Source: an uncultured Sterolibacterium sp. (lineage in GTDB: Bacteria; Pseudomonadota; Gammaproteobacteria; Burkholderiales; Rhodocyclaceae). Taken from it: DNA of 64,000 nucleotides. Every line of letters starts with the position of its first letter. The first letter of the stretch is position 1. Under the pieces are notes generated by a model that was given only the letters and a program-made list of their open reading frames with translations, made no database searches and was not told the DNA's origin. Location: NCBI GenBank assembly GCA_903930535.1, contig CAIYYX010000051.1:1-64000 (forward strand), in the 5' to 3' direction. Shown one piece after another: positions 178 through 18,267 of this stretch. The position numbers and the translations under genes are program-made.

Positions 178-1623
178 ATGACCCATAAGACCATGAGAGA
201 CTTTCTCACCGCCCTGGAAAAAAAGGGCCTGCTGCGCCGGATTTCCAGACCCGTCGACCGTACGTGGGAACCCGCAGCCCTGGCGAAATGGATGTATCAG
301 GCGGTGCCCGCAGAGAAATGCTTCGGCATGTATTTCGAAAATGTCAAAGGCTCGGACATCCCCATCGTCACCGCTGCGCTGGGCGCCAATACGGCTGCCT
401 ATGCGGTTGCCCTGGACGTCGAGATCGATGACATCAACGCTGCCTGGGTCAAGGCCTGCCGCAACCCCATCAAACCGAAGATTGTCGATAAGGCGATGTG
501 CCAGGAAGTGGTATTCACCGGCAAGGACGTACGCCTGTCCTCCCTGCCGATTCCCGTATGGACGCCGGGCAAGGACGTCGGTCCCTATCTCACGACCAAT
601 ACCGTCACCAAGGATTTCGACACGGGCATCCAGAACATGGGCGTCTATCGCACCATGGTTCGCGATGAGACGAGCGTCATTCCGAATCTCGCGCCGGGGC
701 GTCAGGGCCATCAAAACATGCTCACCTGGAGCGACAAGGGCAAGGTCGCGCCCATCGCCTGGGTGATTGCCGCCCCACCCGCCGTGCATTTTGCCACCGT
801 GGCCAACCTGCCCTACGGCGCCGACGAGATCGAAATCGCCGGCGGCATGATGGGTCAGCCTGTGAACATGGTGAAGGCGAAGACGGTTGACCTCATGGTT
901 CCGGCTGACGCCGAAATCATCATCGAAGGCGAGATCCATCCGGGCGAGACCGACATGGAGGGACCGTTCGGCGAATTCGCCGGCTATATGGGACCGATAG
1001 ACCGCCGCCCCGTGGTGCGCATCACCGCCATCACCCACCGCAAGAATCCAATCTTTTATGGCTATACCAGCCAGATGCCGCCTTCAGAGAGCACCACCAT
1101 TCAGAGCCTGACCAACGCCGGGGTCATGCTGAAGATGCTGCGTTATGACCTGGGCGAACCCAGCGTATCAGATGTGTTCATCGACCTCACCTTCGGCGGC
1201 CTGCTCGCCCATGCCATCATCGCCATGAAGCCCGGCTACCCGGCGCATTCGAAGAAGGTGGGACGCCTGGTCGCCGCCATGTCGCCCATCAAGCGCGTGA
1301 CCGTCGTCGACGACGACGTCGATATCCGCGACCACAGCCATGTCGAATGGGCGATGAATTCGCGCTACAACCCGGCCCGCGACACCGTTCTGATTGATGA
1401 CGTCTATTTCCCGATCAACATGGACCCTTCTGTCCGCTCCCAGACCTCGCAAAGCACCATGGGCAGCAAGGTCGTCTGCGACGCCACGCAGAAGATAGAC
1501 GCCGGCACCTTCTCGCTGCCGTCCAAGGAAATCATGATGAAGGCGCTGGAATTGTGGAAGGAAATCGGCCTGCCCGAGTTCGAGATTCCGAAGCGCGCGA
1601 AACTGCGCATCGATCGTTCCTGA
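178..1623 (+). CDS. UbiD family (de)carboxylase 1
   Basis: A 481-residue protein of the UbiD family, which use prenylated FMN to decarboxylate, or reversibly carboxylate, unsaturated and aromatic acids. The diagnostic MEGPFGE motif is present, with the two catalytic glutamates at about residues 261 and 266. The substrate- and cofactor-contacting arginine is in NMGVYR (about R158). The start is supported by AGGAG a few bases upstream. The gene is 30 bases before livH, so it probably forms one operon with a Liv-type importer, pointing to an imported aromatic acid or a product made from it. No ubiX-like prenyltransferase, needed to make the cofactor, is in this window. The true substrate cannot be read from sequence; UbiD-type ubiquinone biosynthesis is less likely given the catabolic context. 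Confidence 0.9.
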   Translation: MTHKTMRDFLTALEKKGLLRRISRPVDRTWEPAALAKWMYQAVPAEKCFGMYFENVKGSDIPIVTAALGANTAAYAVALDVEIDDINAAWVKACRNPIKPKIVDKAMCQEVVFTGKDVRLSSLPIPVWTPGKDVGPYLTTNTVTKDFDTGIQNMGVYRTMVRDETSVIPNLAPGRQGHQNMLTWSDKGKVAPIAWVIAAPPAVHFATVANLPYGADEIEIAGGMMGQPVNMVKAKTVDLMVPADAEIIIEGEIHPGETDMEGPFGEFAGYMGPIDRRPVVRITAITHRKNPIFYGYTSQMPPSESTTIQSLTNAGVMLKMLRYDLGEPSVSDVFIDLTFGGLLAHAIIAMKPGYPAHSKKVGRLVAAMSPIKRVTVVDDDVDIRDHSHVEWAMNSRYNPARDTVLIDDVYFPINMDPSVRSQTSQSTMGSKVVCDATQKIDAGTFSLPSKEIMMKALELWKEIGLPEFEIPKRAKLRIDRS

Positions 1624-1653: not shown

Positions 1654-2532
1654 ATGCTGCTGCTTCAGCAAATCATCAATGGGCTGATGATGGGCGGCAT
1701 CTATGTGCTCGTTGCCGTTTCGTTCACCCTGACCATAGGCGTCCTCAACTTTCTCAACTTCAGCATTCCGGGCATTTTCATGCTCAGCGCCATCATGGCC
1801 TGGCGCGCCCTGGAGAATGGCTGGCACTGGGGCCTGGCGATCCCCTTCGGTCTCTTGGTCGCCATTTGCGCCTCCTTTGTGGTTGAGCGTTTCACTTATC
1901 GTTTCATGAAAAACGTTGACCACGAAATCCCGCTGGTCAGTTCCATCGGCTTCCTGATTCTGTTCGAAAATCTGGTGCTCGTCGCCTGGGGCTCTGACCA
2001 GCAGAAGTTTCCTTCGCTAATCCCCGACCTCAACATCCGCGCGGGGGGACTCATCATCGGCATCGGCCAGATGTTGAGCCTGGCACTGGCACTGCTCTTG
2101 GTCATAGGAATTTCCTTGCTGTTGAAGCGCACGCAACTGGGACGGGGCATTCGCGCGCTTGCCGAAAACGCCGAGACAGCCACACTTCTTGGCATCGAGG
2201 TGCACCGCATCGTTCCCGTCCTGTTCGTCGTCACCGGCCTCCTGACCGGCATCAGCGGCATCCTCTTCGCCATGAACTACCAGCAGGTATCGGCAGCCAT
2301 GGGCGACGTCGTCGGCCTCAAGGGAATCGCCGCCATGGTCATCGGCGGCATGGGCAACATCTGGGGAGCAATCATAGGCGGCCTGTTGATCGGGTTGACC
2401 GAAGTGTTGTCGATTTATTTCTTCGGCGCCGACAAGGTCGACTTCTATGTCTATGGCCTGTTTCTGGTCCTCATCATCCTGCGACCACAGGGCATTCTCG
2501 GCAGTTCGGCAGCAACCGGAGTGAAGCTATGA
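1654..2532 (+). CDS. livH: branched-chain amino acid type ABC transporter permease LivH
   Basis: A 292-residue integral membrane protein with eight or so hydrophobic segments and the LivH-type opening 'QQIINGLMMGGIYVLVAVSFTL'-like pattern. A glycine-rich conserved loop, GLKGIAAMVIGGMGNIWGA, lies near residues 223-241 and contacts the ATPase subunits. It is the first of two permease subunits of a high-affinity ABC importer. Its stop overlaps the start of livM (ATGA). In aromatic degraders, Liv-type systems often carry benzoate-like acids rather than amino acids, and the operon with UbiD and aryl-CoA ligase genes favours that role here. The substrate is inferred from context only. Confidence 0.92.
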   Translation: MLLLQQIINGLMMGGIYVLVAVSFTLTIGVLNFLNFSIPGIFMLSAIMAWRALENGWHWGLAIPFGLLVAICASFVVERFTYRFMKNVDHEIPLVSSIGFLILFENLVLVAWGSDQQKFPSLIPDLNIRAGGLIIGIGQMLSLALALLLVIGISLLLKRTQLGRGIRALAENAETATLLGIEVHRIVPVLFVVTGLLTGISGILFAMNYQQVSAAMGDVVGLKGIAAMVIGGMGNIWGAIIGGLLIGLTEVLSIYFFGADKVDFYVYGLFLVLIILRPQGILGSSAATGVKL

Positions 2533-3368
2533 GCGGCTACGCCGAAGCCATACTCCTGATGCTGGCGATCAATGTCGTGGTTGCCCAGGCCGGCTATCTG
2601 CCGCTGGCTGCCGGCCAGCTCAATCTTGGCGTGGCCGGTTTCATGGCGATTGGCGCCTATGTCTCGGCGTTTGTCACCAACACATACGACCTGCCCATCG
2701 TGCTGGGCATCGTCAGCGGCGCCTTCGCCGCATGGCTGGTGGCTGTCCTGCTGGCCGTGCCACTGTTGCGGGCCAGCGGCATCTATCTGGCACTCGCCAC
2801 TTTCGCCCTCGGCCAGGTGATCCAGGCGGTATTTCTCAACCTGGAAGTGGTCGGCGCAGCGGCCGGATATGCGGTCAAGAAACACGCCAGTTTCTCGCTC
2901 ATCATGACTACCACGGCCACGGTGCTTGCCCTCGTGTTCCTGCTCTCGCGCACGCGCTTCGCCCTTTACCTGACGGCAGTGAAGAATGATCCTGTCGTCT
3001 CGGATCTCTTCGGCATCAATGTCCGCATGATCAAGGTGCAGGCCTTTTCCCTGGGTGCCCTCATCGCCGGCGTCGGCGGTGCGCTCTATGCGCACCAGTA
3101 CAGCTACCTCGAGCCGCAAAACTTCAATATTCTGCTCAGTGTCTATATCGTTCTTTACGTCCTGCTTGGCGGCACCCAGACCGTGCTCGGACCTATCCTC
3201 GGCGCCTTCTTCTTCACCCTGCTGCCGGAACTGCTGCGCGGCAGCGAGCAATGGCGTTATGTCGTTTTCGCGCTGTTCATCATCGCCTTGATGGCATTGA
3301 GACCGCAAGGTCTGATCACCACCGAGTTGTTGCGGCGGCTGACTCTGCGCCGGGAGAGCAAGGGATGA
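2529..3368 (+). CDS. livM: branched-chain amino acid type ABC transporter permease LivM
   Basis: A 279-residue second permease of the Liv importer, with multiple transmembrane helices. The family signature around 'LALATFALGQVIQAVFLN' (residues about 88-105) and the 'LGGTQTVLGPILGAFFFTLLPE' region near residues 216-237 correspond to the LivM coupling helix. The start ATG overlaps the livH stop by four bases and the stop overlaps the livG start, so translation is coupled through the whole set. It is slightly short compared with typical 300-350-residue LivM proteins, which often have a longer N-terminus. No frameshift is evident. Confidence 0.92.
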   Translation: MSGYAEAILLMLAINVVVAQAGYLPLAAGQLNLGVAGFMAIGAYVSAFVTNTYDLPIVLGIVSGAFAAWLVAVLLAVPLLRASGIYLALATFALGQVIQAVFLNLEVVGAAAGYAVKKHASFSLIMTTTATVLALVFLLSRTRFALYLTAVKNDPVVSDLFGINVRMIKVQAFSLGALIAGVGGALYAHQYSYLEPQNFNILLSVYIVLYVLLGGTQTVLGPILGAFFFTLLPELLRGSEQWRYVVFALFIIALMALRPQGLITTELLRRLTLRRESKG

Positions 3369-4150
3369 GTAAGCCTGCGCTGCTCGAATTCGCCGAAGTC
3401 AGCAAGCTCTTCGGCGGCCTCGCGGTCATCACGCAGCTGAGCTTCAAGGTCGACGCCGGCGAGCGTCTTGCGCTCATCGGTCCGAACGGTGCTGGCAAGA
3501 GCACGGTATTCAACTTGATCAGCGGCGTCTATCCTCTCTCCGCCGGCCGCATCCTGATTGAAGGGAAGGACATCACTCAAATGGCTTCGCGGCGACGCAT
3601 CTATCACGGCGTATCGCGCAGCTTTCAGAATATCAGGCTGATGGAGCACCAGACGGCCATCGAGAACATCATGCTGGGCCAGCATCCGACCGCCAGTTCG
3701 CTCTCCGATCTACTGACGCCCTATCGCTTGCAAAGGCGAAGCCCCTGGGTCGAAGAAGCGAAGGAAGCTCTGGCGCGGGCAAAGCTCGCGCAATATGCCG
3801 AGCGGCCGGTCAATACCCTGCCCTACGGTGTCAGGAAGCGCATTGACTTGCTGCGGGCAGTGATGGCTCGCCCGAAATTGTTGCTGCTGGACGAACCGGC
3901 TGCCGGGCTCAACCCGGTGGAAACCGAAGAACTGCACGAGCAGTTGATGGCCATACACGACAGCGGCATTACGCTCCTGGTCGTCGAACACGACATGCAT
4001 TTCGTGGACAGGTTGTGCACCCGCGTCGTCGTCATCAACTTCGGCGAGAAAATCGCCGAGGGCACCATGGATGAGGTGAGGCGGGACGCCAAGGTCCGCG
4101 AGGCTTATCTGGGTGCCGAAGTGGCGACGGAGGCCAGCGATGCTTCTTGA
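3365..4150 (+). CDS. livG: ABC transporter ATP-binding protein LivG
   Basis: A 261-residue cytoplasmic ATPase of the Liv importer. The Walker A motif GPNGAGKST is at about residues 39-47, and the Walker B region LLLLDEPAAGLNP follows the LivG-type signature LPYGVRKR, which replaces the usual LSGGQ. The switch histidine is in VVEHDMHFV. An upstream extension of the frame exists, but the ATG at 3365 is chosen because it overlaps the livM stop as ATGA and gives the normal LivG N-terminus. Its end overlaps livF by 11 bases. It works with LivF to energise the two permeases. Confidence 0.93.
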   Translation: MSKPALLEFAEVSKLFGGLAVITQLSFKVDAGERLALIGPNGAGKSTVFNLISGVYPLSAGRILIEGKDITQMASRRRIYHGVSRSFQNIRLMEHQTAIENIMLGQHPTASSLSDLLTPYRLQRRSPWVEEAKEALARAKLAQYAERPVNTLPYGVRKRIDLLRAVMARPKLLLLDEPAAGLNPVETEELHEQLMAIHDSGITLLVVEHDMHFVDRLCTRVVVINFGEKIAEGTMDEVRRDAKVREAYLGAEVATEASDAS

Positions 4151-4847
4151 GGCGAAGGGATTGAATGTCCGCTATGGCCGCATCACCGCGGTCAAGGATC
4201 TCGACATCACGGTGGCAGAAGGGCAGATCGTCACCGTACTTGGCGCCAACGGCGCCGGCAAGAGCAGTCTGCTCAAGGCGCTGATTGGCTTGGTCAAGCC
4301 GGCCTCAGGCCACATCCACTTCAATGGCCAGGATATAACTCACTGCTCACCCAGCGAACGCGTCAAGGCGGGTCTGGCGCTGGTCCCCGAAGGAAGGCGC
4401 ATACTCATCAGCCTCACGGTCGAGGAGAATCTGCTGCTGGGCGCCTATCACCGCCATGACAAGGCTGCAGTGGCCAGGGAGATAGACGCCCTCTATCAGC
4501 GCTTTCCCAATCTCGGCGAACGACGTTACGCCAAGGCGGCATGTCTTTCCGGCGGCGAGCAGCAGATGCTGGCGATCGGTCGCGCCTTGGTGGGCGCGCC
4601 GCGCCTGATGATGCTCGATGAACCCTCGCTGGGTCTGAGCCCCTTGTTCATCTCCCGTCTTTTCGATCTGCTCTCTGATCTTAATCGCAACGGTCTGACG
4701 GTGCTTCTGGTCGAGCAGAACACCGGCATGGCACTGAGGGTGGCGCACGCGTGCCATGTCCTCGAACTGGGACGGGAAATCACCCACGGAACGCCGCAGC
4801 AGTTGAAAGCCGACAAAAAACTGCAGGAAGCCTATCTCGGCGCATGA
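4140..4847 (+). CDS. livF: ABC transporter ATP-binding protein LivF
   Basis: A 235-residue second ATPase of the Liv importer. Walker A (GANGAGKSS) begins near residue 35, the signature is LSGGEQQMLAIGRAL, and Walker B is LMMLDEPSLGLSP followed by the VEQN switch. The ATG at 4140 lies inside the end of livG (11-base overlap), giving the standard LivF start 'LLEAKGLNVRYG'. Together with livH, livM, livG and the receptor gene downstream this is a complete importer. A gap of 111 bases separates it from the receptor gene, the largest gap in this run of genes. Confidence 0.93.
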   Translation: MLLEAKGLNVRYGRITAVKDLDITVAEGQIVTVLGANGAGKSSLLKALIGLVKPASGHIHFNGQDITHCSPSERVKAGLALVPEGRRILISLTVEENLLLGAYHRHDKAAVAREIDALYQRFPNLGERRYAKAACLSGGEQQMLAIGRALVGAPRLMMLDEPSLGLSPLFISRLFDLLSDLNRNGLTVLLVEQNTGMALRVAHACHVLELGREITHGTPQQLKADKKLQEAYLGA

Positions 4848-4958
4848 GTCGATGATAGGGGTCACAGATGGAAGAAATAACGGAGCAGCGCAGTTCCGCT
4901 GCAGGTGAAAGGTTTCTCTCGCATCCCGACTGAGGAACCGCTGTAAAAGGAGAAAGCG

Positions 4959-6137
4959 ATGAAATACACGAACAGACTTTTCGCCGCAACGATTCTTGCG
5001 ACGCTGATGCTGCAGCCTTCCGCGCAGGCACAGAGCCAGCTGGTCATCGGTTATTCCATGGCCAAGACCGGCCCATTTGTCAGCCTGGCCAACGGCAATG
5101 AGATTGCCGCCGACATGGCTGTGGATGAGATCAATGCCAAGGGCGGCATCAATGGCAAGAAACTGAAACTGGTCAAGTTCGACACCGGCGGCAATCCCAA
5201 GGACGCGGTGATAGCGATCCGGCGTTTTGCCCAGGACGATAAGGCGCTTGCCGTCATCGGTCCGTTCAGTTCCAGCGAATGCAAGGTCGCCTTCCCTGCC
5301 GGCGAACCCGATGGCATCGTGCAGATGAGCATGGCGTCGTCGGCGCCGGGACTGACCGCAGGATTCTCCTACGCTTTCCGCAATACCGTGGATGAGGGCA
5401 AGGTGATCGAGGATGTGATGGAGACGCTGGCCGCCAAGAAGTTCCCCACCCAGACCGCCTCCATCGCCTATGCCACCGACGACGCTGTTTCCAAATCCGT
5501 CGGCACCGCCGTCCTGCCTGCCGTATTCAAGAAATTCAATGCGACGGTAAAGCAGACCGTAGATTTCCAATTCAAGGCTTTTGATCTGTCGCCGCAGGTA
5601 TCGCAACTGGTTCAGGCAAAACCCGACCTCATCGGCGTCGGCGCGCCGCCCGAGTCTGCCATCAAGCTGGCGACCGAGCTTCACCGCCAGGGATACAAAG
5701 GCCGGATGATCGCCGGTACGACGATTGCCGATCCTGACCTGCCCAAGCGGATGGCACCGGCCGGGGAGAACATGACCATAGGGACCACCTACTTCAAGAA
5801 TCTCAACCCCAGAACAAAAGCATTCGCGGCCGAGTTCGAGAAACGCGCCAAGGCGGCCGGCCTGTCTCGCTCGGAGTCCAACCAGTTCGACGCGGCCACC
5901 TACGATATCGTCCTCATGTACGCCGAGGCGATGACCAAGACCCGCACCACGGGAGATGCGGCGAGTCTCGCCAAAGAACGGACGGCGATACGCGACTATC
6001 TTGCCAGCCTGAAAAATTTGAAGGGTCTGGAGGGTGACATCTCCTTCGACAAGGATCGCGAATCGCTCAAGCCCGTCTATGTCATCGAGGCCAAAAGTGG
6101 CGCCTGGACATTGCTCGATACGCGCAACCCGAAATAA
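4959..6137 (+). CDS. Liv-type ABC transporter substrate-binding protein
   Basis: A 392-residue periplasmic receptor. It has a clear signal peptide: a basic start, a hydrophobic core LFAATILATLMLQ and a probable cleavage after AQA near residue 25. The mature part starts with LVIGYSMAKTGPF, typical of periplasmic binding protein type 1 domains that bind branched-chain amino acids, amides or aromatic acids. AAAGGAG supports the start. It is the fifth gene of the Liv set. The binding-pocket motif GPFSSSE (about residue 104) is in the position where LivK-like proteins hold the ligand carboxylate. The ligand is unknown; an aromatic acid is likely from neighbours. Confidence 0.92.
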   Translation: MKYTNRLFAATILATLMLQPSAQAQSQLVIGYSMAKTGPFVSLANGNEIAADMAVDEINAKGGINGKKLKLVKFDTGGNPKDAVIAIRRFAQDDKALAVIGPFSSSECKVAFPAGEPDGIVQMSMASSAPGLTAGFSYAFRNTVDEGKVIEDVMETLAAKKFPTQTASIAYATDDAVSKSVGTAVLPAVFKKFNATVKQTVDFQFKAFDLSPQVSQLVQAKPDLIGVGAPPESAIKLATELHRQGYKGRMIAGTTIADPDLPKRMAPAGENMTIGTTYFKNLNPRTKAFAAEFEKRAKAAGLSRSESNQFDAATYDIVLMYAEAMTKTRTTGDAASLAKERTAIRDYLASLKNLKGLEGDISFDKDRESLKPVYVIEAKSGAWTLLDTRNPK

Positions 6138-6174: not shown

Positions 6175-7332
6175 ATGAGCTTCTTCGCCAGTCAGTCGCG
6201 ACATGTAGCGCATCCCACGTCTGAAATCGTCGGAACCATTCCTCCTTTCGATCAGCGCGAGCAGCAGCATACCCGGGCCGCGACAGGCGCCCTCGGCGAG
6301 ATGATACAGAAGCGCTGGACAACGGAATCCGTCGACCCTTTCCGGCGCGTGTTCTATCCCGAGAATCGCCCTTTCAATTCGCCGCTGCGCTCCCTGCTCG
6401 CGGTGGCCGAGGGGCCGGTCAATCCCGTCGCCGCTCCGGTCAAGGATCCTGCCAAAATGGCGGCGCACGTGAAGGAGGTCACGAAGTTCTTCGGCGCCCA
6501 TCTCGTCGGCGTCTGCGAACTCCAACCATGGATGGTGTACTCCCATCGCGGTCTGCGCATAGACGCCCGCAAGGGGCGCTTTGGCGAGCCCATAGAGCTT
6601 AGCCACCGTTTTGCCATCTCGATCGGCCACGAGATGAATTATCAGCGCCTGCGCTATTCGCCGGGATTCATCGATGGCGCCGAGGTCGGCTTCGGTTATC
6701 TCGAGTCGGCGAAAATCGCCACCGCGCTGGCCTGCTATATCCGAGAACTGGGCTACCCGGCGATGGCACACTTCCATGTCTCGGAACGGGTGCTGCATGT
6801 CCCCATCGCCGTCCAGGCCGGACTGGGCGAACTGGCGCGCAACAACTGCCTGATCACGAAGAAGTTCGGTCCGCGATTGAGGCTGGCGACCGTGACCACG
6901 GATCTGCCGCTCGCCATCGACTTGCCGATCGACATCGGCGTCCAGGCATTGTGCGAAGACTGCGACAAGTGCGCGGCACTGTGCCCGTCACAGAGCATCC
7001 CCAAAGGAGCGAAACAAGTCGAGCGTGGTTACTCCCACTGGGTGACGAACAACGACACCTGCATCGGATACTGGAACGCCAACCCTGACCGCTGGAACGA
7101 TTGCGCCCGCTGCATCACCGTCTGCCCCTGGAACAAGCCGGACAAATGGTGGTTCCGACTGGCCATCTGGGCCATCCCCAGGGGCAGGGTCTTCCGCAAG
7201 ACGGTACTGTGGCTGGACGATATGATCTGGAACAAGAAATTCCACCTGAAGAGCGGTGCCGGCTGGCTGATGTACGACCGCTCCACTTCCGCCAAGAAGT
7301 ACGAGAACGGCCAGATTCATCCGCGAGCATGA
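6175..7332 (+). CDS. reductive dehalogenase-like corrinoid/iron-sulfur protein without TAT signal
   Basis: A 385-residue protein that resembles the core of RdhA reductive dehalogenases and the related QueG family. Near residues 180-255 it shows the RdhA-like corrinoid-domain sequence YIRELGYPA, AGLGELARNNCLIT, GPRLRLATVTTDLPL and PIDIG. Two [4Fe-4S] sites follow: C260-x2-C263-x2-C266-x3-C270-P, and C296 with C310-x2-C313-x3-C317-P-W. Respiratory RdhA proteins are about 450-550 residues with a twin-arginine signal and an RdhB anchor gene. Here there is no signal peptide and no RdhB, so it should be cytoplasmic. The start at 6175 has an AAGGGG-type ribosome site. Its stop overlaps the start of the next aryl-CoA ligase gene (ATGA), tying the two functions together. 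The reaction is unknown: reductive dehalogenation of an aryl acid or aryl-CoA is possible, as is another corrinoid-dependent reduction. Confidence 0.8.
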   Translation: MSFFASQSRHVAHPTSEIVGTIPPFDQREQQHTRAATGALGEMIQKRWTTESVDPFRRVFYPENRPFNSPLRSLLAVAEGPVNPVAAPVKDPAKMAAHVKEVTKFFGAHLVGVCELQPWMVYSHRGLRIDARKGRFGEPIELSHRFAISIGHEMNYQRLRYSPGFIDGAEVGFGYLESAKIATALACYIRELGYPAMAHFHVSERVLHVPIAVQAGLGELARNNCLITKKFGPRLRLATVTTDLPLAIDLPIDIGVQALCEDCDKCAALCPSQSIPKGAKQVERGYSHWVTNNDTCIGYWNANPDRWNDCARCITVCPWNKPDKWWFRLAIWAIPRGRVFRKTVLWLDDMIWNKKFHLKSGAGWLMYDRSTSAKKYENGQIHPRA

Positions 7333-8990
7333 ATTTAGCAGCGACGCCACCGCCCGGGATCAGCATACAGTCGCTGCCCGCCGCCTATCTGCCTCCGCTG
7401 CAGCACCGGCCCGAACTGGTATTTTCCCTGCCTGAACTGCACTATCCGTTGCGGCTCAATGCGGCTTTCGAGTTCGTCGATCGCGCCCTTGCCCGGGGTT
7501 GGGGCGATAGCACCATTTACCTCTTCGGCGACCGTCGCGTGACCTATGACGAGCTGGCCCGCGAGGTCAATCGCTTCGGCAATGCCTTAGCCGCTCTCGG
7601 AATTCAACCTGGCGACCGCGTACTGCTGAGGATTCCGGACCGACCCGAGCACATCGTCTGCATCCTCGCCCTGCTGAAGATTGGCGCGGTGGCGGTGCCG
7701 ACATTCACGCTGCTGCGCGCCAAGGACATCCTCTATCGGGAGCAAGATTCCGAGGCGGTCGCGCTGATTGTTGACTCACGCCACATGAAGGAGGTCGAGA
7801 GCGCCCGGCCATCCTTCAGCTTCGTCCGGCAGATTATTGTGATCGGCGAAGGTGGAAACGACTGCAGCCTTTCCTATGAGGCGCTTGTCGCGGCAGCTTC
7901 CGACGAACTCGCGCCCGCACCGACGCTGAAGGACGACCTCGCGCTGCTGCTTTATACTTCCGGCAGTACGGGCGAAGCGAAGGGCTGTTGCGAGAGCCAC
8001 AGCGATCTCCTGGCAATCGCCGACGGCTTTTGCAACTACCAGCTGCCGCTGCAGCCTGGCGATGTCATTGCCGGGCAACCGCCGCTCGCGTTCTCGATGG
8101 GCGTCGGTTTCTTTCTCTCCTATCCCCTGCGCTTCGGCGTACCCGCGGTACTGATGGAGGACAAGAGTCCGGAGGCCATGTTGCACGCAATCGAGCGCTA
8201 TCGCGCCACCATCTTCGGTGCCGTCCCGACCTATTACAACATGCTGGCGCTTGCCGAGGAAAGAGTCCACGCCGACATGTCCTCCCTGCGCGATCTGAGA
8301 AGCGCCGGCGAGACGCTCTCGGCCGCCGTCGCCGCCCGCGTTCTGGATCAGTTGGGCTCCCCCGTGCGCAACTCGATGGGCTCGACCGAATCCCTGCATA
8401 TCATCTCTTCGACCCGGCACGGCGACCCCGTCCGCGAGGGCTCATGCGGTCAGGCCATACAAGGTTTTGAAATCGTTGTCCGCGATCCCGATAGCTTCGA
8501 GGAAATGCCGCGCGGCCACCCCGGTCTGCTCACGTTCAGGGGTCCCACCGGCACCAAGTACTGGCGCAAACCGGAAGTGCAGGCGAAATCCGTGCGCAAT
8601 GGCTGGTCCATCCTGCAAGACTCGGTCTGGATGGACGAGGAAGGCTTCCTCTTTTATCTCGGCCGCCAGGACGACATGATAGTCACCTCGGGCTATAACA
8701 TCGCACCCACCGAGGTCGAAGCCGTCCTCGCCAGCCACGCGGCGGTTCTCGAATCTGCCTGCGTCCCATCGCCCGACCCGGAGGGTGAGCGCTCCCAGGT
8801 GGTCAAAGCCTGGATCGTCCTGCGCGAAGGATTTTCTGCATCGGGCGAGCTCGCACAAGAGATCCAGGCATTCTTCAAGCAGCACGGGGCACCGCACATG
8901 TATCCTCGTGTGATCGAGTTCGCCTCTGCTTTACCGAAAACGCCGACAGGGAAAATACGCCGTGCCGACTTAAGGACACTGGCGAAATAA
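7329..8990 (+). CDS. AMP-forming aryl-CoA ligase (benzoate-CoA ligase family)
   Basis: A 553-residue adenylate-forming ligase that would convert a carboxylic acid, ATP and CoA to an acyl-CoA. The phosphate-binding loop LLYTSGSTGEAKG lies near residue 213. The family hinge region is GRQDDMIVTSGYNIAPTEVE, and the C-terminal catalytic lysine is in PKTPTGKIRR. The overall text resembles benzoate/4-hydroxybenzoate-CoA ligases. Its ATG overlaps the stop of the reductive-dehalogenase-like gene, so the frame upstream of 7329 is not used. It is one of five such ligases in the window. The aromatic substrate cannot be deduced safely; context suggests a benzoate derivative. Confidence 0.9.
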   Translation: MNLAATPPPGISIQSLPAAYLPPLQHRPELVFSLPELHYPLRLNAAFEFVDRALARGWGDSTIYLFGDRRVTYDELAREVNRFGNALAALGIQPGDRVLLRIPDRPEHIVCILALLKIGAVAVPTFTLLRAKDILYREQDSEAVALIVDSRHMKEVESARPSFSFVRQIIVIGEGGNDCSLSYEALVAAASDELAPAPTLKDDLALLLYTSGSTGEAKGCCESHSDLLAIADGFCNYQLPLQPGDVIAGQPPLAFSMGVGFFLSYPLRFGVPAVLMEDKSPEAMLHAIERYRATIFGAVPTYYNMLALAEERVHADMSSLRDLRSAGETLSAAVAARVLDQLGSPVRNSMGSTESLHIISSTRHGDPVREGSCGQAIQGFEIVVRDPDSFEEMPRGHPGLLTFRGPTGTKYWRKPEVQAKSVRNGWSILQDSVWMDEEGFLFYLGRQDDMIVTSGYNIAPTEVEAVLASHAAVLESACVPSPDPEGERSQVVKAWIVLREGFSASGELAQEIQAFFKQHGAPHMYPRVIEFASALPKTPTGKIRRADLRTLAK

Positions 8991-9030: not shown

Positions 9031-9726
9031 ATGAGCGGTGCAAATCTGGTATTCAATCTGATCACCAAACATGGGGAGAGCTCCCGTCCGACGATAGTGT
9101 CCACGGCCATCATTGCGGGCTGGACCGGCCGCGACAAGGAAGCCATGGAAAAACACATCGTCGAACTGGAGGCGATAGGGGTGAAACGTCCCGCCAAGAC
9201 GCCAACTTATTACCGCGTGGCTGCCGCGCACCTGACGACATCCAGCGAGATCCAGGTCGCGGGAGATGACTCCAGCGGCGAGGCAGAGTTCATACTGACG
9301 ACCATAGACGGCCGACTCTGGGTCGGTGTGGGCTCGGACCACACCGATCGCAAGGTGGAAACAACTGGCGTGACCATATCCAAGCAGATGTGTGAAAAGC
9401 CCGTCAGCTCACAATTGTGGCCCTATGACGAAGTCGCCGACCACTGGGACAAATTGATATTGCGCTCCTATGTGGTCGAGGACGGCCAGACCAAGCTTTA
9501 TCAGGAGGGACCGGTCACGACCATGATGGACCCCCTCTTGCTGATCGCCGGCTATCCTGCCGCCAAGGCAGGGCTGACCGAGGGCTCCCTGATGTTCTGT
9601 GGCACGCTCGCGGCGAAGGGAGGCATCCGGCCAGCACCGCGATTCATATTCGAACTGGAAGACCCTGTATTGAAGCGTAAGATTGGCAATGGCTACGACA
9701 TCGTCTGTCTGCCGGTGGAAGGCTGA
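9031..9726 (+). CDS. DUF2848 family protein
   Basis: A 231-residue protein matching the DUF2848 family, cytoplasmic enzymes with a fold related to fumarylacetoacetate hydrolases. Visible family features are the central GVGSDHTDR segment (about residues 102-110), SKQMCEKP, and the C-terminal FCGTLAAKGGIRPAPRFIFELEDP. The start at ATG 9031 follows AAAAAGGAACA; an in-frame ATG at 9004 lacks a good ribosome site. It sits between the aryl-CoA ligase and the biotin carrier gene, as part of the same run. DUF2848 genes are often near amidases and biotin-dependent carboxylase parts. The reaction is not established; a C-C or C-N bond hydrolase is plausible. Confidence 0.8.
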   Translation: MSGANLVFNLITKHGESSRPTIVSTAIIAGWTGRDKEAMEKHIVELEAIGVKRPAKTPTYYRVAAAHLTTSSEIQVAGDDSSGEAEFILTTIDGRLWVGVGSDHTDRKVETTGVTISKQMCEKPVSSQLWPYDEVADHWDKLILRSYVVEDGQTKLYQEGPVTTMMDPLLLIAGYPAAKAGLTEGSLMFCGTLAAKGGIRPAPRFIFELEDPVLKRKIGNGYDIVCLPVEG

Positions 9727-9775
9727 AAACGGCTGCTCTTGAACTATTTGCAATTGATCTTGCGGAGATAAATGT

Positions 9776-10273
9776 ATGAGTCCGTCCATTGAGGAAATCA
9801 AGGAAGTCCTGGCGATATTTCTCGATTCAGAATTACAGGATTTGCGGCTTGAGATCGGCAATGTCAGGCTGGCCGTCGCCAAGGGAGGCGGTCTGTCGAC
9901 CCAGCCCTTCAGTTCTCCGGCGCCGAATCATCCAATTGCGCCTCCTCCCGCGCCGGCGACAGCTGCCGTGACACAGGCGCCTGCGGCCTCTCCGGTCGCC
10001 ATAGCGCCTGCCCCGGCTCCAGTTCGCGAGGGTTGGGTGCTGGTCAACTCGCCCTCGATCGGCACCTTTTATCGCCGCCCGGCACCGGACCAGCAACCCT
10101 TCGTCCAGATAGACAGCCAGGTCAATGCCAATGATCCGCTCTGCCTGATAGAGGTGATGAAAATGTTCACCGGGGTTTCCGCCCCATGCACTGGCCGCAT
10201 CGCCGAGATCCTGATAGCCGATGCCACGGTGGTGGAGTATGGTCAGCCCTTGATGTATATCGAACCGGCCTGA
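9776..10273 (+). CDS. biotin carboxyl carrier protein
   Basis: A 165-residue AccB-like carrier. The N-terminal 35 residues resemble the AccB start region, followed by an Ala/Pro-rich flexible linker (about residues 45-85) and a C-terminal biotinyl domain (about 90-165). The biotin-accepting lysine is in EVMKM at about residue 129, 36 residues from the C-terminus as usual; the common Ala before Met is Val here. GGAGAT precedes the ATG. It is four bases before a carboxyltransferase gene, so the two very likely form one enzyme. No biotin carboxylase gene is in the window, so the carrier either uses the housekeeping AccC or is loaded by a decarboxylation or transcarboxylation reaction. Confidence 0.9.
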   Translation: MSPSIEEIKEVLAIFLDSELQDLRLEIGNVRLAVAKGGGLSTQPFSSPAPNHPIAPPPAPATAAVTQAPAASPVAIAPAPAPVREGWVLVNSPSIGTFYRRPAPDQQPFVQIDSQVNANDPLCLIEVMKMFTGVSAPCTGRIAEILIADATVVEYGQPLMYIEPA

Positions 10274-10277
10274 AGCC

Positions 10278-11714
10278 ATGTCAAGAAAAGTTAACCTCAT
10301 AGAGACCACATTGCGCGACGGCCAGCAGTCGCTGTGGGCGACGCGCATGACTACCGCCATGATGCTGCCCATACTGCCGGTGATGGACAAAGTCGGCTTC
10401 GATGCCATCGAGTGCATGGGCACGGCGGCCATGGACTCCTGTGTGCGCTACCTGAAGGAGAATCCCTGGGAACGCATGCGCCTGATCAGGGAAAGGGTCA
10501 AGCATACCCCCCTGCAGATGATCAGCATCTGCATCGGCTTTTCCGTCGGCAAGGCGCTGTTTCCCGACGACATGCTCGAACTCTTCTTCAGCCGCTGCGC
10601 CGCTGCCGGCATAGACCGTTTCTTCCTGATGGATGGACTCAACGACATCCGCAACTTCGAGGTACCGATCCGGGCCGCACACAAGGCCGGTGCGAAGGTG
10701 CTGGGCAGCGTTGTCTATTCCATCAGCCCGGTGCATACCGATGCCCACTTCGTGGAAAAGACCCGCGAACTCGTCGCACTCGGCGCCGACATCCTGGTGC
10801 TGAAGGATCCGAACGGCATCCTCACCCCCGAGCGGGTGCGCACCCTGTTGCCGGCGATGAAGGCGGTCTCCAAAGGCCGTCCCTTCTACTGCCACTCCCA
10901 CTGCATGACGGGTCTGGGCCCGGCCACCAACCTCGAGGCCATAGCGCAGGGAGCCGACGTCGTGTGGACTGCGTCACGCGCCCTGGCCAATGGCTCATCG
11001 CTGCCGGCCACCAGTTCGATGCTAAGGCATCTGAAGCGCGCAGGCTATGACATAGCTCTCGATCAGGAGGGCGTCCAGACAATAGAGGATCATTTCTTCT
11101 CGGTGGCGAAACGCCACAACATGCCCGTCGGCAAGCCCGTGGAGTACGATCCCTCATTCTATGAACACCAGGTGCCCGGCGGCATGATTTCCAACTTCAG
11201 ATCGCAGATGGCGCAACTGGGGCTTGAGCACAGAATGGATGAAGTCTTCGAGGAGATCCCGTCGGTGCGCAAGGATCTCGGCTGGGCCCTGATGGTCACG
11301 CCCTTCTCGCAGGTAATAAGCACGCAGGCAGCGCTCAATGTCCTTTATGGCCGCTACAAGGTGACCCTGGCCGAGGTGGACCGCCTGGTGCTGGGCTACT
11401 ATGGTTTGACGCCGGCGCCGGTGAGCCAGAACCTGCTCGACCAGATCTGCAAACGCACCGGCGAGAAACCCATCACGGAGCGCCCGGGGCTCACCGTGGA
11501 ACCGGTGATTGAACGCTTCCGCAGGGAAAGCGGACCCTTCGCCTCGGACGAGGAAATGCTTCTCGAATACCTGTTCATGCCGGAACACATCCGCACGCTG
11601 CGCGCAGCCGGCCCCATGCAGCAAGAGGACAAGATTTCAACCGGACCCCTGGCGGATCTCATCCGCGAAGTGGCCAAACACAAGGATGTCACCCGCTTCC
11701 ACCTGACAATGTAA
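10278..11714 (+). CDS. pyruvate carboxylase-type biotin-dependent carboxyltransferase subunit
   Basis: A 478-residue TIM-barrel carboxyltransferase of the pyruvate carboxylase B / oxaloacetate decarboxylase alpha / transcarboxylase 5S family, without a fused biotin domain. The opening ETTLRDGQQSLWATRM (residues about 7-22) is the family hallmark. LVLKDPNG holds the lysine that is carbamylated in homologues, and CHSHCMTGLGPA supplies the metal-binding histidines. The usual 'DTSG' text is altered to 'CMTG', so the keto-acid substrate may differ from pyruvate. It directly follows the biotin carrier gene (4-base gap). The acceptor or donor of the carboxyl group is unknown; possibilities are pyruvate, an acyl-CoA or a ring-cleavage product. 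Confidence 0.85.
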   Translation: MSRKVNLIETTLRDGQQSLWATRMTTAMMLPILPVMDKVGFDAIECMGTAAMDSCVRYLKENPWERMRLIRERVKHTPLQMISICIGFSVGKALFPDDMLELFFSRCAAAGIDRFFLMDGLNDIRNFEVPIRAAHKAGAKVLGSVVYSISPVHTDAHFVEKTRELVALGADILVLKDPNGILTPERVRTLLPAMKAVSKGRPFYCHSHCMTGLGPATNLEAIAQGADVVWTASRALANGSSLPATSSMLRHLKRAGYDIALDQEGVQTIEDHFFSVAKRHNMPVGKPVEYDPSFYEHQVPGGMISNFRSQMAQLGLEHRMDEVFEEIPSVRKDLGWALMVTPFSQVISTQAALNVLYGRYKVTLAEVDRLVLGYYGLTPAPVSQNLLDQICKRTGEKPITERPGLTVEPVIERFRRESGPFASDEEMLLEYLFMPEHIRTLRAAGPMQQEDKISTGPLADLIREVAKHKDVTRFHLTM

Positions 11715-11746
11715 TGTCCTTTGGAAAACAACAATTGAGGAGCCCC

Positions 11747-12721
11747 ATGATGATTTCACTTTCAAGAACTTTGCTTTTCCTGCTTGCCTTCGGACTCACG
11801 GAACAAGCTGTTGCGCAAGCCGACTACCCGTCAAAACCGATCAAGTTGATCGTCCCTTACGCACCCGGCGGCCCGGACGATCTGGTCGCCCGTATTTTAA
11901 GCAAGCCGCTTGCTGATATCCTGGGTCAGCCGGTCCTTGTCGAAAACCATCCCGGCGTGGGCGGCACCATCGCCATGAGCTTCACCGCCAAGTCAGCTCC
12001 CGATGGCTATACTCTGGCGGTGGCCGATACCGGACAACTCGCCATTGCGCCCGGCCTCTATGCCAAGCTCCAGTACACCCCTCTGATCGACCTAATCCCC
12101 GTATCCAACGTCGCATTGCTGCCCTACACGCTCGCCATCAACGCGAAAGTACCTGCCAACAATGTTCGGGAATTGATCACGCTGGCCAAATCAAGAAAGG
12201 ATCCCATGAGCTGCGGCTCCACCGGCCCAGGTGGGTCATCCAACCTCGGCTGCATCCTGTTCGCGTCCATGGCCGGGCTCGATATCCTGCAAGTACCCTA
12301 CAAGGGTTTGGCACCTTCGGTGATGGCCGTACTGACGGGCGAGGTCGACATGACGGTCTCCGACCTCGCATCCGTGGCGCGACACGCAAAAGATGGCAAG
12401 CTGCGCCTGCTTGCCTCAACCAGTGCCAAGCGAGCTCCCGCCGCACCGGAGTTGCCAACCGTCGATGAGGCAGGAGTCAAGGGTTACTCGTTGGATATCT
12501 GGATCGGGGTTATCGCTCCGGCGGCCACCCCCAGGGCGATCGTGGAAAAGCTCAACGCCGCAATCGTCAAGGCAACCAAGACCGCCGAGGTCCAGCAGCG
12601 CTTCAGGGACATCGGCTATGCCTTGGTTGGCGATACACCCGAGCAATTCGGCGAAAAGATCCGGGCCGATATCGAAAAATTCGGACAAATAATAAAGAGC
12701 GCCAACCTCCCGAGGCAATAG
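11747..12721 (+). CDS. Bug family tripartite tricarboxylate transporter receptor
   Basis: A 324-residue periplasmic binding protein of the Bug/TctC family. A signal peptide with hydrophobic core LLFLLAFGLTE ends in AVAQA. The mature part begins with YPSKPIKLIVPYAPGGPDD and continues with VENHPGVGGTI, both hallmark Bug motifs that bind ligand carboxylates. The start at 11747 follows GAGGAG; an ATG 33 bases upstream is in frame but has no ribosome site. No tctA or tctB membrane genes are adjacent, so it is an orphan receptor, common in betaproteobacteria, that must share a permease elsewhere or act as a sensor. The ligand is probably a carboxylic acid of this pathway. Confidence 0.92.
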   Translation: MMISLSRTLLFLLAFGLTEQAVAQADYPSKPIKLIVPYAPGGPDDLVARILSKPLADILGQPVLVENHPGVGGTIAMSFTAKSAPDGYTLAVADTGQLAIAPGLYAKLQYTPLIDLIPVSNVALLPYTLAINAKVPANNVRELITLAKSRKDPMSCGSTGPGGSSNLGCILFASMAGLDILQVPYKGLAPSVMAVLTGEVDMTVSDLASVARHAKDGKLRLLASTSAKRAPAAPELPTVDEAGVKGYSLDIWIGVIAPAATPRAIVEKLNAAIVKATKTAEVQQRFRDIGYALVGDTPEQFGEKIRADIEKFGQIIKSANLPRQ

Positions 12722-12723
12722 CC

Positions 12724-13395
12724 ATGCACAAGTTCGAGATGCCGCAGGAATATGTAAAACGCGTCGTTGGCCGCCAGGGACGGGCTCATCTCTGCGAGAC
12801 CTTCGACGCTTCGAAAACCGCCTTGATCGTGGTCGACATGCAGAATTTTTTCATGACCGCGCCTTATCTCGCCGCCTGTCCAATCGCGCAGGAAGTCGTG
12901 CCCAACGTCAACCGGCTGGCAAAGGCGATGCGTAAGGCCGGCGGCAAGGTCGTCTGGCTGCAGAACCTGGCACCCTGGGAGTCAGAGGAGAGTTGGTCGG
13001 TCGCCAGGCAGATGTACACCGCGGAGAAGGCGAAACAGCGCTGGGAGGCGATGCAGCGTGACGCCCACGGCTTTCAACTCTGGCCGGATCTGGAGGTCAG
13101 GGAAGAGGATGAGCGGGTCGTCAAACGCCGCTACAGCGCCTTCATCCAGGGCTCGTCGAATATCGAGAATGTGCTCGGAGACAGTGGCATCGATACGCTC
13201 ATCGTCACCGGTGTAGCCACCAACGTCTGCTGCGAATCGACTGCGCGCGACGCCATGATGCTCAACTATCGCGCCCTCATGGTCGCGGATGCCTGCGCCA
13301 CGGCAACCGACGCCGAGCATGCCGCGACCCTGGGAAATTTCTATCTCTATTTCGGCGACGTGCAAACGACAGACGAGGTTATCGCGCGACTCTAA
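12724..13395 (+). CDS. isochorismatase family cysteine hydrolase
   Basis: A 223-residue hydrolase of the isochorismatase-like superfamily, which includes nicotinamidase, N-carbamoylsarcosine amidase, maleamate amidase and ureidoacrylate amidase. The catalytic triad is visible: Asp in VVDMQNFF (about residue 39), Lys in VVKRRYSAF (about 136) and Cys in VATNVCCESTARD (about 170). A double cysteine (CC) is at the nucleophile position. It starts two bases after the Bug gene and ends the plus-strand run. With an amidase gene 3.5 kb away, release of an amide nitrogen from the substrate is a reasonable guess. The precise substrate is unknown. Confidence 0.88.
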   Translation: MHKFEMPQEYVKRVVGRQGRAHLCETFDASKTALIVVDMQNFFMTAPYLAACPIAQEVVPNVNRLAKAMRKAGGKVVWLQNLAPWESEESWSVARQMYTAEKAKQRWEAMQRDAHGFQLWPDLEVREEDERVVKRRYSAFIQGSSNIENVLGDSGIDTLIVTGVATNVCCESTARDAMMLNYRALMVADACATATDAEHAATLGNFYLYFGDVQTTDEVIARL

Positions 13396-13409
13396 GCCCT
13401 AAGCCCGGG

Positions 13410-14684
13410 CTATTTCATCACCAGGTTGGGCAGATACAGAGACAGTATCGGCACATAGGTGACAATGGCCAGGGCGATCGCATAGGCGGCGAAGAAAGGC
13501 CACAGCCCGCTCACGATCTTCGATGACGACACCTTGAAAATGCTGCAACTGACGAATATGTTCAGGCCGAAGGGCGGCGAGAACATGCCGATGGCCAGGT
13601 TCACCGTAAAAATGATGCCGAAGTGAATGAGGTCGACCCCGGCGTGCTGTGCCAGCGGCCAGAGCAAGGGGGTGAACAGCACGACGGCGGAGTTCGGATC
13701 CATGAACATGCCGACGATGAGCAGGACTATGTTAATCATCAACAGCACCATCATCGGCGACAACTGGTAGGCTTCTATCAACCCGACCATTTTCTGCGGC
13801 ACCGCCTCAGCCGTGAGTATCCAGGAAAACACGCCGGAAGCGGCAACTATGATGAACACCTTGGCGGAGAGCAAGGCCGTCTCGCGGGTGATGGCCCAGA
13901 TGTCGGTCCAGTTGAGTTCCTTGTAAATGTAGACGCTGACGAATACCGCATAGGCGGACACCGCCATGGAGGCCTCGGTGGGGGTCATGAACCCGCCGTA
14001 GATGCCGATGAATATCACAGCCGGTGCGCCCAGGGTCCATACCACTTCGCGCGAGGTGCGCACAATTTCCGTAAGGCTCCAGGTGCGGCCCGAAGTGATC
14101 TTGTTCTTCCAGGCATACCAGACGCAGTAGATGGCCGCGCAAATCCCGACCGTGATGCCCGGCAGAAAGCCGGCGAGATAAAGCCTGCCGACGGAAGCAT
14201 TGGTCATCACCGCGAACAGAATCATGGTGATGGAAGGCGGAATGATGATGGCGATGGCGCCCGAAGAGGTGATCAGGCCCAGGGAGAAGCGCTCGCTGAA
14301 GCCTTCCTTGAGCAGGGCCGGGTAGAGGATCTTGCCCAGAGCGGCGACGGTCGCAGAACTCGAACCGGAAATGGCGCCGAAGGTCTCTGCAGCGGCCACC
14401 GTGGTGAGCGCCATGCCGCCGGGCACCCGGCCCAGGAAGGCCGACAGCCAGGCGATCAGGCGGGCTGACATGCCGCCCTCGCCCATCACGCCGCCGGCAA
14501 AAATGAAGCCTGGCACCGCCAGAAGCGCGAGCTTGTTGATGGTGCCGGTCAGTCCCTGCACCACCACTTCCATGGAGACTCCCTGCCAGGTCATCGAGGT
14601 GATGGCCAGGAACATGAAAATCATCCACATGGGGATGCCCAAAACCAGGAGCACGAAGGATGATATTGCAATCGCCGTCAACAT
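13410..14684 (-). CDS. dctM: TRAP transporter large permease subunit DctM
   Basis: A 424-residue membrane protein with about 12 hydrophobic segments, the ion-coupled transport subunit of a TRAP system. Family features are VPGFIFAGGVMGEGG near residues 57-71, AAAETFGAISGSSSATVAALG near residue 105, and the C-terminal half IFTVNLAIGMFSPPFGLNIFVSC. Its start is two bases after the stop of the small permease gene on the same strand. It is convergent with the cysteine hydrolase gene (14 bases between stops). The three TRAP genes are complete and contiguous in the order receptor, small, large. Confidence 0.94.
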   Translation of the reverse strand: MLTAIAISSFVLLVLGIPMWMIFMFLAITSMTWQGVSMEVVVQGLTGTINKLALLAVPGFIFAGGVMGEGGMSARLIAWLSAFLGRVPGGMALTTVAAAETFGAISGSSSATVAALGKILYPALLKEGFSERFSLGLITSSGAIAIIIPPSITMILFAVMTNASVGRLYLAGFLPGITVGICAAIYCVWYAWKNKITSGRTWSLTEIVRTSREVVWTLGAPAVIFIGIYGGFMTPTEASMAVSAYAVFVSVYIYKELNWTDIWAITRETALLSAKVFIIVAASGVFSWILTAEAVPQKMVGLIEAYQLSPMMVLLMINIVLLIVGMFMDPNSAVVLFTPLLWPLAQHAGVDLIHFGIIFTVNLAIGMFSPPFGLNIFVSCSIFKVSSSKIVSGLWPFFAAYAIALAIVTYVPILSLYLPNLVMK

Positions 14685-14685
14685 C

Positions 14686-15258
14686 CTACAAACCCTCGGC
14701 CATTCTTTGTTCCTCAGAAAGATGGCGTCTCCGCCTTCCGGTAAATATGGAAAGCAGGTAGCTGATATAAGCCACCGCCATCAGGGCAAAGCACAAAGGA
14801 ATCGCCAGGGTTTGCGGCCAGGAGGGAAGATAGCCGCTGGCCAGAAGCGTGTCGTAGGCGATCTCCTGCCTCATGCTGTCATAGCCTATCTTGGCGATGT
14901 ACGAGCACAAGCCGATGCCCAGGAAGGCAATGATGATGTCCATGACTCTGCGCATCCGCGGCGGCATATGCAGATACACCGCGTCCATGGAGATATGGTC
15001 GTTGTCGAGGCACAGGGAAACCGTGCCGAGATAGACCAGCCAGATCAAGAGCATGCGCAAGAGGTCGTCGAGCCAGACGATGGCGATGCCCAACTGGTAG
15101 ACAATGACGGCAATGGTGGTGACCACGATCAGGAAGGCGCAGATGATGGCCGAGAGTTGATCGGCCAGCATCGCCACCTTATTGATGGCATTGTCGAAGG
15201 CGACTAACAAGCCGGCGTATTTCGGGTCCTCTGCCCCCGAGCCTCCTTCAGAACTCAC
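14686..15258 (-). CDS. dctQ: TRAP transporter small permease subunit DctQ
   Basis: A 190-residue membrane protein with four predicted helices, including AIICAFLIVVTTIAVIVYQLG and MRRVMDIIIAFLGIGLCSYIA. The DctQ-type loop YLGTVSLCLDNDHISMDAVY is near residues 76-95. Its soluble N-terminus of about 25 residues is a little longer than normal. The gene is 12 bases downstream of the receptor gene and two bases before dctM. It pairs with DctM to bind the loaded receptor. Confidence 0.9.
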   Translation of the reverse strand: MSSEGGSGAEDPKYAGLLVAFDNAINKVAMLADQLSAIICAFLIVVTTIAVIVYQLGIAIVWLDDLLRMLLIWLVYLGTVSLCLDNDHISMDAVYLHMPPRMRRVMDIIIAFLGIGLCSYIAKIGYDSMRQEIAYDTLLASGYLPSWPQTLAIPLCFALMAVAYISYLLSIFTGRRRRHLSEEQRMAEGL

Positions 15259-15270
15259 GCGGCATCTCTC

Positions 15271-16284: not shown

Positions 16285-16472
16285 GACTTTCCTCCTCAGT
16301 TGGGTTATTAGAGCAGATTCCTTTTTTGATCGAGCTTAGCATACGTATGAACACATACACAAAAGAATTTCCCCGGCTGGCGCAAGGTCCAGTAACCATG
16401 GACTTCCTGCATTCTGATATTATTGAGATGTTTCACAAGACTCACCCACAACCGACTGCGGAAAGGATTAGC

Positions 16473-16853: not shown

Positions 16854-16870
16854 AGCGAGACGATGCCTCG

Positions 16871-18220: not shown

Positions 18221-18267
18221 GTCGGGCTTTCGATGGAGACACCCGGACGGCTGCAGCCCGACCTACG
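18221..18267. repeat. REP-like palindromic element, copy A
   Basis: A 47-base element starting right after the amidase stop codon. Its outer arms GTCGGGCT and AGCCCGAC are perfect inverted repeats, followed by CCTACG. The core matches copy B at 49792-49838 in inverted orientation with 39 of 42 bases identical. It overlaps the stop codon of the converging GntR gene and may help terminate transcription. Confidence 0.8.

Follow-up and report, generated by a model that had tools for sequence, protein, structure and literature searches.

Closest described systems and the rdhL locus

Reductive dehalogenases of the RdhA family have been divided into four subfamilies by domain organisation, of which the catabolic ones carry a vestigial duplication (PMC10463259), and the cobalamin dehalogenases of the papers cited here act on free halogenated compounds (PMC10463259, PMC7565698, PMC13101508). 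Here we compare with them rdhL, a gene for a short RdhA-like protein that is followed by an aryl-coenzyme A (CoA) ligase gene (acl) in a 64,000-nucleotide stretch of an uncultured Sterolibacterium sp. (assembly GCA_903930535.1, contig CAIYYX010000051.1, positions 1 to 64,000), called the window below, whose host genome (4.03 Mb in 289 contigs) is about 92% complete. The setting of rdhL suggests, as the best reading, the reductive dehalogenation of an imported haloaromatic acid, either free or as its CoA thioester.

The duplicated catabolic RdhAs without a fused reductase, represented by NpRdhA of Nitratireductor pacificus (4ras/6zxu), resemble RdhL in having no twin-arginine (Tat) signal and in their catalytic Tyr and eight Fe-S Cys residues, and differ from it in their vestigial N-terminal corrinoid domain. 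An RA..G.LG element is common to RdhL and the duplicated RdhAs (loci L005, L026, L068 and L024, and BhbA), and is visible in NpRdhA too. The short catabolic reductive dehalogenases, Ros_A3X954 of Roseobacter sp. MED193 and A0A2T7UTL8 of Pararhodobacter aggregans, share with RdhL the absence of a Tat signal and probably a single domain. Ros_A3X954 has been expressed and assayed, debrominates 2,6-dibromophenol, and has its Fe-S motifs at 283-294 and 337-345 (PMC13101508); from these positions and a mass of about 50 kDa, given by the printed kcat and specific activity, it probably has one domain and no fused reductase. Both printed motifs were found letter for letter in two short RdhA proteins of our set, L058 (416 amino acids) and L059 (391 amino acids). 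A short, reductase-free catabolic layout is therefore very probably already known, and the absence of Tat signal, RdhB partner and reductase from RdhL, which the first-pass annotation had taken as a mark of novelty, is not new because an enzyme of probably the same layout is in print. The RdhL clade differs from the short enzymes in its separate position, on a borderline test (see below), in the RA..G.LG element, which the two short rows checked lack, and in its ligase partner, no ligase having been found in L058-L060, L062 and L063.

A conserved importer, rdhL and ligase unit

rdhL and acl are a real, conserved and selected gene pair. A contig scan of genomes gave seven pattern-matching stretches, two of which (L001 and L002, both from Betaproteobacteria metagenome bins) are close relatives of the rdhL locus. 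The order Liv importer, rdhL, ligase recurs in all three known loci of the clade (window, L001 and L002), with 76-78% identity to the window for rdhL and 77-80% for the ligase. Purifying selection is evident in both genes, the ratio of non-synonymous to synonymous substitution rates (dN/dS) across the three pairs of the three orthologues being 0.14-0.17 for rdhL and 0.12-0.17 for acl. The overlap behind the translational coupling proposed from the window alone is confirmed there, the ligase ATG overlapping the rdhL stop codon (TGA at 7330-7332) by 4 bases, and the association with a Liv importer holds in each locus. The overlap itself is found in the window only; by the called starts, L001 has a gap of 41 base pairs (bp) and L002 one of 94 bp. 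A scan of the window, L001 and L002 against Rfam gave no family at its gathering score.

Table 1. Coordinates of rdhL, its partner genes and the upstream UbiD gene in the window.
Feature	Coordinates	Strand	Description
UbiD	178-1623		reading frame upstream of the Liv importer
Liv-type ATP-binding cassette (ABC) importer	1654..6137	+	reading frames; two permeases, two ATPases, binding protein at 4959-6137
rdhL	6175..7332	+	single-domain RdhA-family protein, putatively corrinoid/[4Fe-4S], without Tat signal; 385 amino acids; ATG at 6175
acl	7329..8990	+	putative aryl-CoA ligase near the benzoate-CoA ligase family; 553 amino acids; PF00501 E 3.9e-75, PF13193 E 7e-16; ATG at 7329

The L002 importer matches that of the window at 52-62%, and the L001 importer is non-orthologous (24-38%, with its binding protein unmatched) yet occupies the same place before rdhL. 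The window binding protein matches Peripla_BP_6 (E 4.9e-53), the other four importer genes being named by eye. Among solved structures the nearest to the L001 binding protein are 4evq (E 8.4e-46) and 4ey3 (E 1.5e-37), benzoate/4-hydroxybenzoate binders of Rhodopseudomonas.

The ligase shares with the benzoate-CoA ligase family (TIGR02262; 2v7b, 4wv3) both ligase domains and the LHI segment following GSTE. TIGR02262 is its best model, at 327.5 bits (344.5 bits for the L001 orthologue), although the score lies below the cut-off of 375.25. Its nearest solved relatives are the benzoate-CoA ligase 2v7b (E 3.1e-74) and the anthranilate-CoA ligase 4wv3 (E 2.5e-70). A search of 300 genomes of the order at E <= 1e-120, in which at most four candidates were scored per genome, returned only the window's own acl. 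Among the plasmid records that match acl (171), the 15 listed come from haloarchaea, at 42-45% identity; the nearest among those listed (L104, L105 and L106, about 45%) lie close to ABC importers, and in Haladaptatus a kynureninase gene stands about 7 kb from the acl relative, a hint at anthranilate as substrate.

RdhL belongs to the RdhA family

The corrinoid-domain motifs reported for the 385-residue protein are all present in the translation, with AGLGELARNNCLIT at 215-228, TTDLPL at 241-246 and PIDIG at 251-255, as are both [4Fe-4S] motifs (C260/C263/C266/C270 and C296/C310/C313/C317). The reported absences stand as well. No twin-arginine pair occurs within residues 1-40, where the Tat controls L064 and L074 differ, and the RRVF at 57-60 sits in the conserved body of the protein. 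The spacing of the genes (37 bp upstream, -4 bp downstream) leaves no room for rdhB next to rdhL, and the protein, with 385 residues and one corrinoid domain, has no fused reductase. RdhL thus has neither the Tat signal nor the RdhB partner by which respiratory RdhAs are recognised.

Profile searches place RdhL firmly in the RdhA family. The reductive dehalogenase model TIGR02486 gives 164.3 bits (E 5.9e-48), 4 bits above its cut-off of 160.35, and 166.8 and 184.1 bits for the L001 and L002 orthologues, respectively. NpRdhA is the best solved relative (4ras, E 3.9e-57), followed by two tetrachloroethene reductive dehalogenases. PF13486 gives mixed results: the three window-clade proteins give no match at E <= 5, the catalytic half of BhbA and L005 also miss, L059 and L074 lie above the cut-off, and L058 and L018 lie below it.

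The eight Fe-S Cys residues and Y175 are invariant in all 20 rows of alignment A2, and also in all rows of a 16-row alignment that includes the epoxyqueuosine reductase QueG; because the QueG rows keep both, these residues cannot separate RdhA from QueG. That RdhL might be QueG or a duplicate of it, as would be conceivable from their common superfamily, a weak match to the QueG model TIGR00276 and the similarity to solved QueG chains (E 1.5e-8), is nonetheless extremely improbable. The TIGR00276 match is 55.5 bits against a cut-off of 200, and the QueG domain PF08331 is absent from RdhL and scores 73.3 bits in the genome's own QueG, a separate gene of 358 amino acids. In the 16-row alignment the catalytic Tyr is set in G-Y-L in RdhL and in D-Y-H in QueG. 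Finally, the last Fe-S Cys of RdhL leaves only 68 residues to the C-terminus, and the C-terminal domain of QueG spans residues 258-372 (PMC4646009). The model scores, the missing PF08331 and the G-Y-L motif led us to reject a QueG identity, and the claim that RdhL is RdhA-like rather than QueG agrees with the profile search.

Phylogeny and domain layout

The window, L001 and L002 proteins form one clade, with an SH-aLRT support of 100 when 58 RdhA-like rows are analysed together with QueG, and with 100/99 in a 36-row tree. QueG was excluded from the smaller tree, as were seven far-diverged short rows (L020, L066 and five of L065), 14 reductase-fused RdhA rows and one near-copy (L047). Neither tree included L070, with its RdhA divided between two reading frames, or loci repeating one gene. 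In the 36-row tree the clade joins the duplicated catabolic RdhAs at 93/90, a node that is not starred and has long branches. A tree constrained to unite the clade with the nine short reductive dehalogenases was 12.4 log units worse (p-AU 0.046), a borderline result for groups that were defined once the first tree was in view. These results ally the window clade weakly with the duplicated catabolic RdhAs.

The window-clade profile aligns to residues 266-607 of NpRdhA, its catalytic half, and the L001 and L002 orthologues have one domain match where duplicated relatives have two. The RA..G.LG element stands ahead of the catalytic half in the duplicated RdhAs and is present in the window clade, and it is absent from L058 and L061, the two short rows checked. 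On these sequence comparisons we read the window clade as related to the catalytic half of the duplicated RdhAs, and as itself unduplicated. A loop at residues 125-135 (RGLRIDARKGR) is basic and invariant in the three clade members, unlike the remaining rows of A2.

Active site

We mapped active-site residues by a hand count on the printed alignment to 4ras, the numbering of which agrees with the residues named in PMC7565698. Y426 of NpRdhA, the proton donor corresponding to Y246 of PceA (PMC7565698), falls on Y175 of RdhL. S422, K488 and R552, which hold the halophenol in NpRdhA (PMC7565698), fall on V171, R236 and W300, and A419 and M423 fall on G168 and G172. By this mapping RdhL has the proton-donor Tyr and lacks the residues with which NpRdhA holds the phenol oxygen. 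Since the Tat-bearing L064 and L074 and the short rows L018, L019, L058 and L061 also carry R in place of K488 and W in place of R552, the difference is one from NpRdhA and not from reductive dehalogenases at large. A mapping of NpRdhA K307 onto RdhL was dropped, as the MAFFT and HMMER alignments conflict there. A structure prediction from the three-row alignment A1 had a mean predicted local distance difference test (pLDDT) score of 30 and was left unused. RdhL presumably binds cobalamin, judging from its sequence alignment to NpRdhA and PceA.

Proposed function of the unit and its alternatives

Taken together, we regard it as about evenly balanced whether RdhL is a cytosolic single-domain reductive dehalogenase that forms one unit with the Liv importer and the aryl-CoA ligase. 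As a function for the rdhL-ligase pair, dehalogenation is a reasonable inference from sequence and gene context. The Liv importer would bring in a halogenated aromatic (benzoate-like) acid, and RdhL would remove the halogen at a base-off cobalamin with the help of two [4Fe-4S] clusters, Y175 acting as the proton donor. The genes of the unit, as read, include no reductase or ferredoxin, and a general ferredoxin or flavodoxin may feed electrons to the clusters. The ligase would form the CoA thioester before or after halogen removal, and the product would enter the Box and/or benzoyl-CoA reductase routes, key genes of which these genomes carry. Here we infer the halogenated substrate, cobalamin binding, the electron donor and the order of the two steps; the family, the cofactor ligands, the gene order in the three loci, the purifying selection and the key downstream genes are observed.

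The first-pass annotation had proposed a new corrinoid-dependent reduction of an aromatic acid or aryl-CoA rather than organohalide respiration. RdhA membership, the ligase pairing and the kinship of the ligase to benzoate- and anthranilate-CoA ligases uphold the core of that proposal; the novelty by layout, and the part given to UbiD (see below), do not survive. With a conserved set of importer, aryl-CoA ligase and single-domain RdhA, corrinoid dehalogenation would be linked to the CoA-dependent degradation of aromatics. This could account for the use of haloaromatic acids as a carbon source by bacteria that do not live by organohalide respiration. Among the matches listed in a literature search, from which most subscription journals fell outside, no title or abstract paired an RdhA with an aryl-CoA ligase.

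Genomes with the unit also carry candidate downstream routes. BoxB is over its cut-off in all three, on contigs other than that of rdhL; across the order it passes in 42 of the 200 genomes searched (own included). A class I benzoyl-CoA reductase subunit is likewise over cut-off in all three, as BzdN in G1168, the genome of L002, and in G000, which has two copies, one of them shown together with BzdO, and as BcrC in G1167. Among the 200 genomes of the order BzdN passes its cut-off in one, the host's own, with eight more below it.

Several observations weigh against dehalogenation of a haloaromatic acid by this unit. With the halophenol-holding positions altered, RdhL may have a substrate other than a halophenol, or one without any halogen. 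For the binding protein encoded in the window, solved structures are only weak relatives (best E 1.3e-17), none of them known to us as an aromatic binder. Liv importers are probably common in such genomes, which weakens the argument from coupling. None of the neighbours in the three loci was recognised as halogen-specific, those of L001 and L002 having been compared with the genes of the window and beyond that inspected by eye, and three members are all that is known of the clade. Beyond it, neither a ligase neighbour nor a recognised CoA context is seen in six of the nine short-clade loci examined or in any of the nine duplicated-type loci. The downstream routes are also open to a second explanation: BzdN is over cut-off in G001, a member of the same genus that is 80% complete, and the genus mates G002-G004 have weaker reductase matches, of the size of the BcrC match in G1167, with no rdhL of the clade found in any of the four, and the co-occurrence may therefore follow lineage only.

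RdhL may act on the free halogenated acid, leaving the ligase to activate the halogen-free product, a version of the dehalogenation reading that we hold only tentatively and think somewhat unlikely. It agrees with the catabolic RdhAs characterised by 2023, which are specific for ortho-halogenated phenols (PMC10463259), and with the activity of NpRdhA on free halohydroxybenzoates (PMC7565698); the gene order, with rdhL ahead of the ligase, is consistent with this version and carries little weight. RdhL does not have the phenol-binding set of NpRdhA, however, and none of our results speaks for the free acid rather than the CoA ester.

A bolder version, possible and in our view unlikely, has RdhL removing an ortho-halogen from the halobenzoyl-CoA that its partner ligase makes. 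The ligase pairing in all three loci speaks for it, and the invariant basic loop could bind CoA, although no CoA-binding motif in RdhAs, and no activity of this kind, is known to us. By reaction alone, ortho-dehalogenation after a ligase, RdhL could then be likened to 2,4-dichlorobenzoyl-CoA reductase (EC 1.21.1.2) of coryneform bacteria, an NADPH-dependent reductive ortho-dehalogenation from another phylum that is not known to have an assigned gene; a literature search on dichlorobenzoyl-CoA reductase found no paper. If CoA-level dehalogenation were true, rdhL would provide a gene for a reaction type described as an activity and not known to have one. Benzoyl-CoA reductase reduces 2-chlorobenzoyl-CoA to a chlorinated dienoyl-CoA, which the enzymes after it leave unconverted (PMC5742626), and because of this block a dehalogenase acting at the ortho position or at the CoA level would have a use, as a way round 2-chlorobenzoyl-CoA in the benzoyl-CoA pathway.

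RdhL could instead be a class III cobalamin reductase of some other aryl-CoA or aryl-acid reaction, for example one that takes away an epoxide oxygen or a hydroxyl group; we consider this improbable. BoxB makes an aryl-CoA epoxide and is present in all three genomes with the unit, and the substrate positions of RdhL differ from those of NpRdhA. QueG, of the same superfamily, reduces an epoxide and not a C-halogen bond (PMC4646009). Set against this, the family score favours RdhA over QueG, and BoxB lies on other contigs and also occurs elsewhere in the order, whereas the rdhL clade was found in no other genome searched.

Spread of rdhL and ligase pairing among RdhA-like loci

Relatives of RdhL occur in 4 of 101 genomes (E <= 1e-20), 8 of 369 (E <= 1e-40), 7 of 399 (E <= 1e-45) and 20 of 398 (E <= 1e-22), counts that include the own genome each time and come from overlapping sets, the three large draws having scored the best four or five candidates per genome. 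Besides the own protein, no match in any of the four sets exceeded 41% identity. Nineteen pattern matches in viral contigs contained no RdhL relative.

Across 26 loci, a ligase stands beside the RdhA gene in three of three window-clade, two of nine short-clade and none of nine duplicated-type loci, and we therefore rejected ligase pairing as a general trait of short reductive dehalogenases. The short-clade cases are L018 (overlapping, same strand) and L061 (657 bp away, opposite strand); in L020, outside these groups, the ligase is 22 bp off on the opposite strand, and L064, L065, L066 and L074 have none. The ligase hidden Markov model behind these counts was built from eight ligases, six of them found beside RdhA genes and the positives included. 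It is not exhaustive, since a second ligase in L061, a PaaK-like one, escaped it. For L072-L075 the flanks covered about 3 kb or less. The L061 ligase has TIGR02262 as its best model (350.8 bits, below cut-off) and a 4HBT thioesterase nearby. As far relatives with CoA-ester genes at their side, L018 and L061 count in favour of the proposed function of the unit.

Some of these loci are of interest in themselves. L061 (4609-13725, genome G1115) combines a 444-residue short RdhA with a double-cupin gene, gentisate-dioxygenase-like by reading, the 4HBT thioesterase, two CoA-ligase-like genes, an acyl-CoA dehydrogenase and an enoyl-CoA hydratase. In L019 (8106-17294, G356) a 454-residue short RdhA lies beside a cyclase and indolepyruvate:ferredoxin oxidoreductase-like genes (TIGR03336 below cut-off), with a thiolase and an acyl-CoA dehydrogenase by eye; a built-in ferredoxin electron source is possible there. 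L065 (6455-12546, G1163), of the far-diverged short group, has five tandem RdhA-like genes of 343-392 amino acids, and the gene downstream of the array looks like a TonB receptor by eye. The RdhA region of L070 (6761-10028, a plasmid of Yoonia sp. SS1-5) runs over two reading frames with no listed gene, and is possibly broken.

UbiD and other neighbours in the window

UbiD had been listed as part of the same run as rdhL. It is a neighbour in the window, but its orthologues in the L001 and L002 genomes (87% and 85%, respectively) are on contigs other than those of rdhL, near DUF2848 genes (72-73%) that are adjacent to UbiD in L086 and separated from it by one reading frame in L085. UbiD was accordingly rejected as a partner of rdhL. 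UbiD and DUF2848 flank the Liv-rdhL-ligase unit in the window; since these two stand together in both other genomes, the UbiD module and the Liv-rdhL-ligase module look separate in origin.

On one contig of the L001 genome (L085), 66-87% counterparts were found for window positions 178-1623 and 9031-19111, which cover UbiD, DUF2848, cupin, amidase and GntR genes. The last three follow next in L085, as 66-79% counterparts of window 16326-19111, with an opposite-strand acetate-CoA-ligase-like gene interspersed among them. UbiD is a multi-copy family in G1168 (for example L086, L087, L088 and L090), with seven places at 70-85%, one of them partial; TctC receptors stand beside UbiD in L087 and L090, and two acyl-CoA-ligase-like genes in L088. 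The same run of the window also holds, at 9776-11714, a separate biotin carrier protein (165 amino acids) and a PycB/OadA-like carboxyltransferase (478 amino acids).

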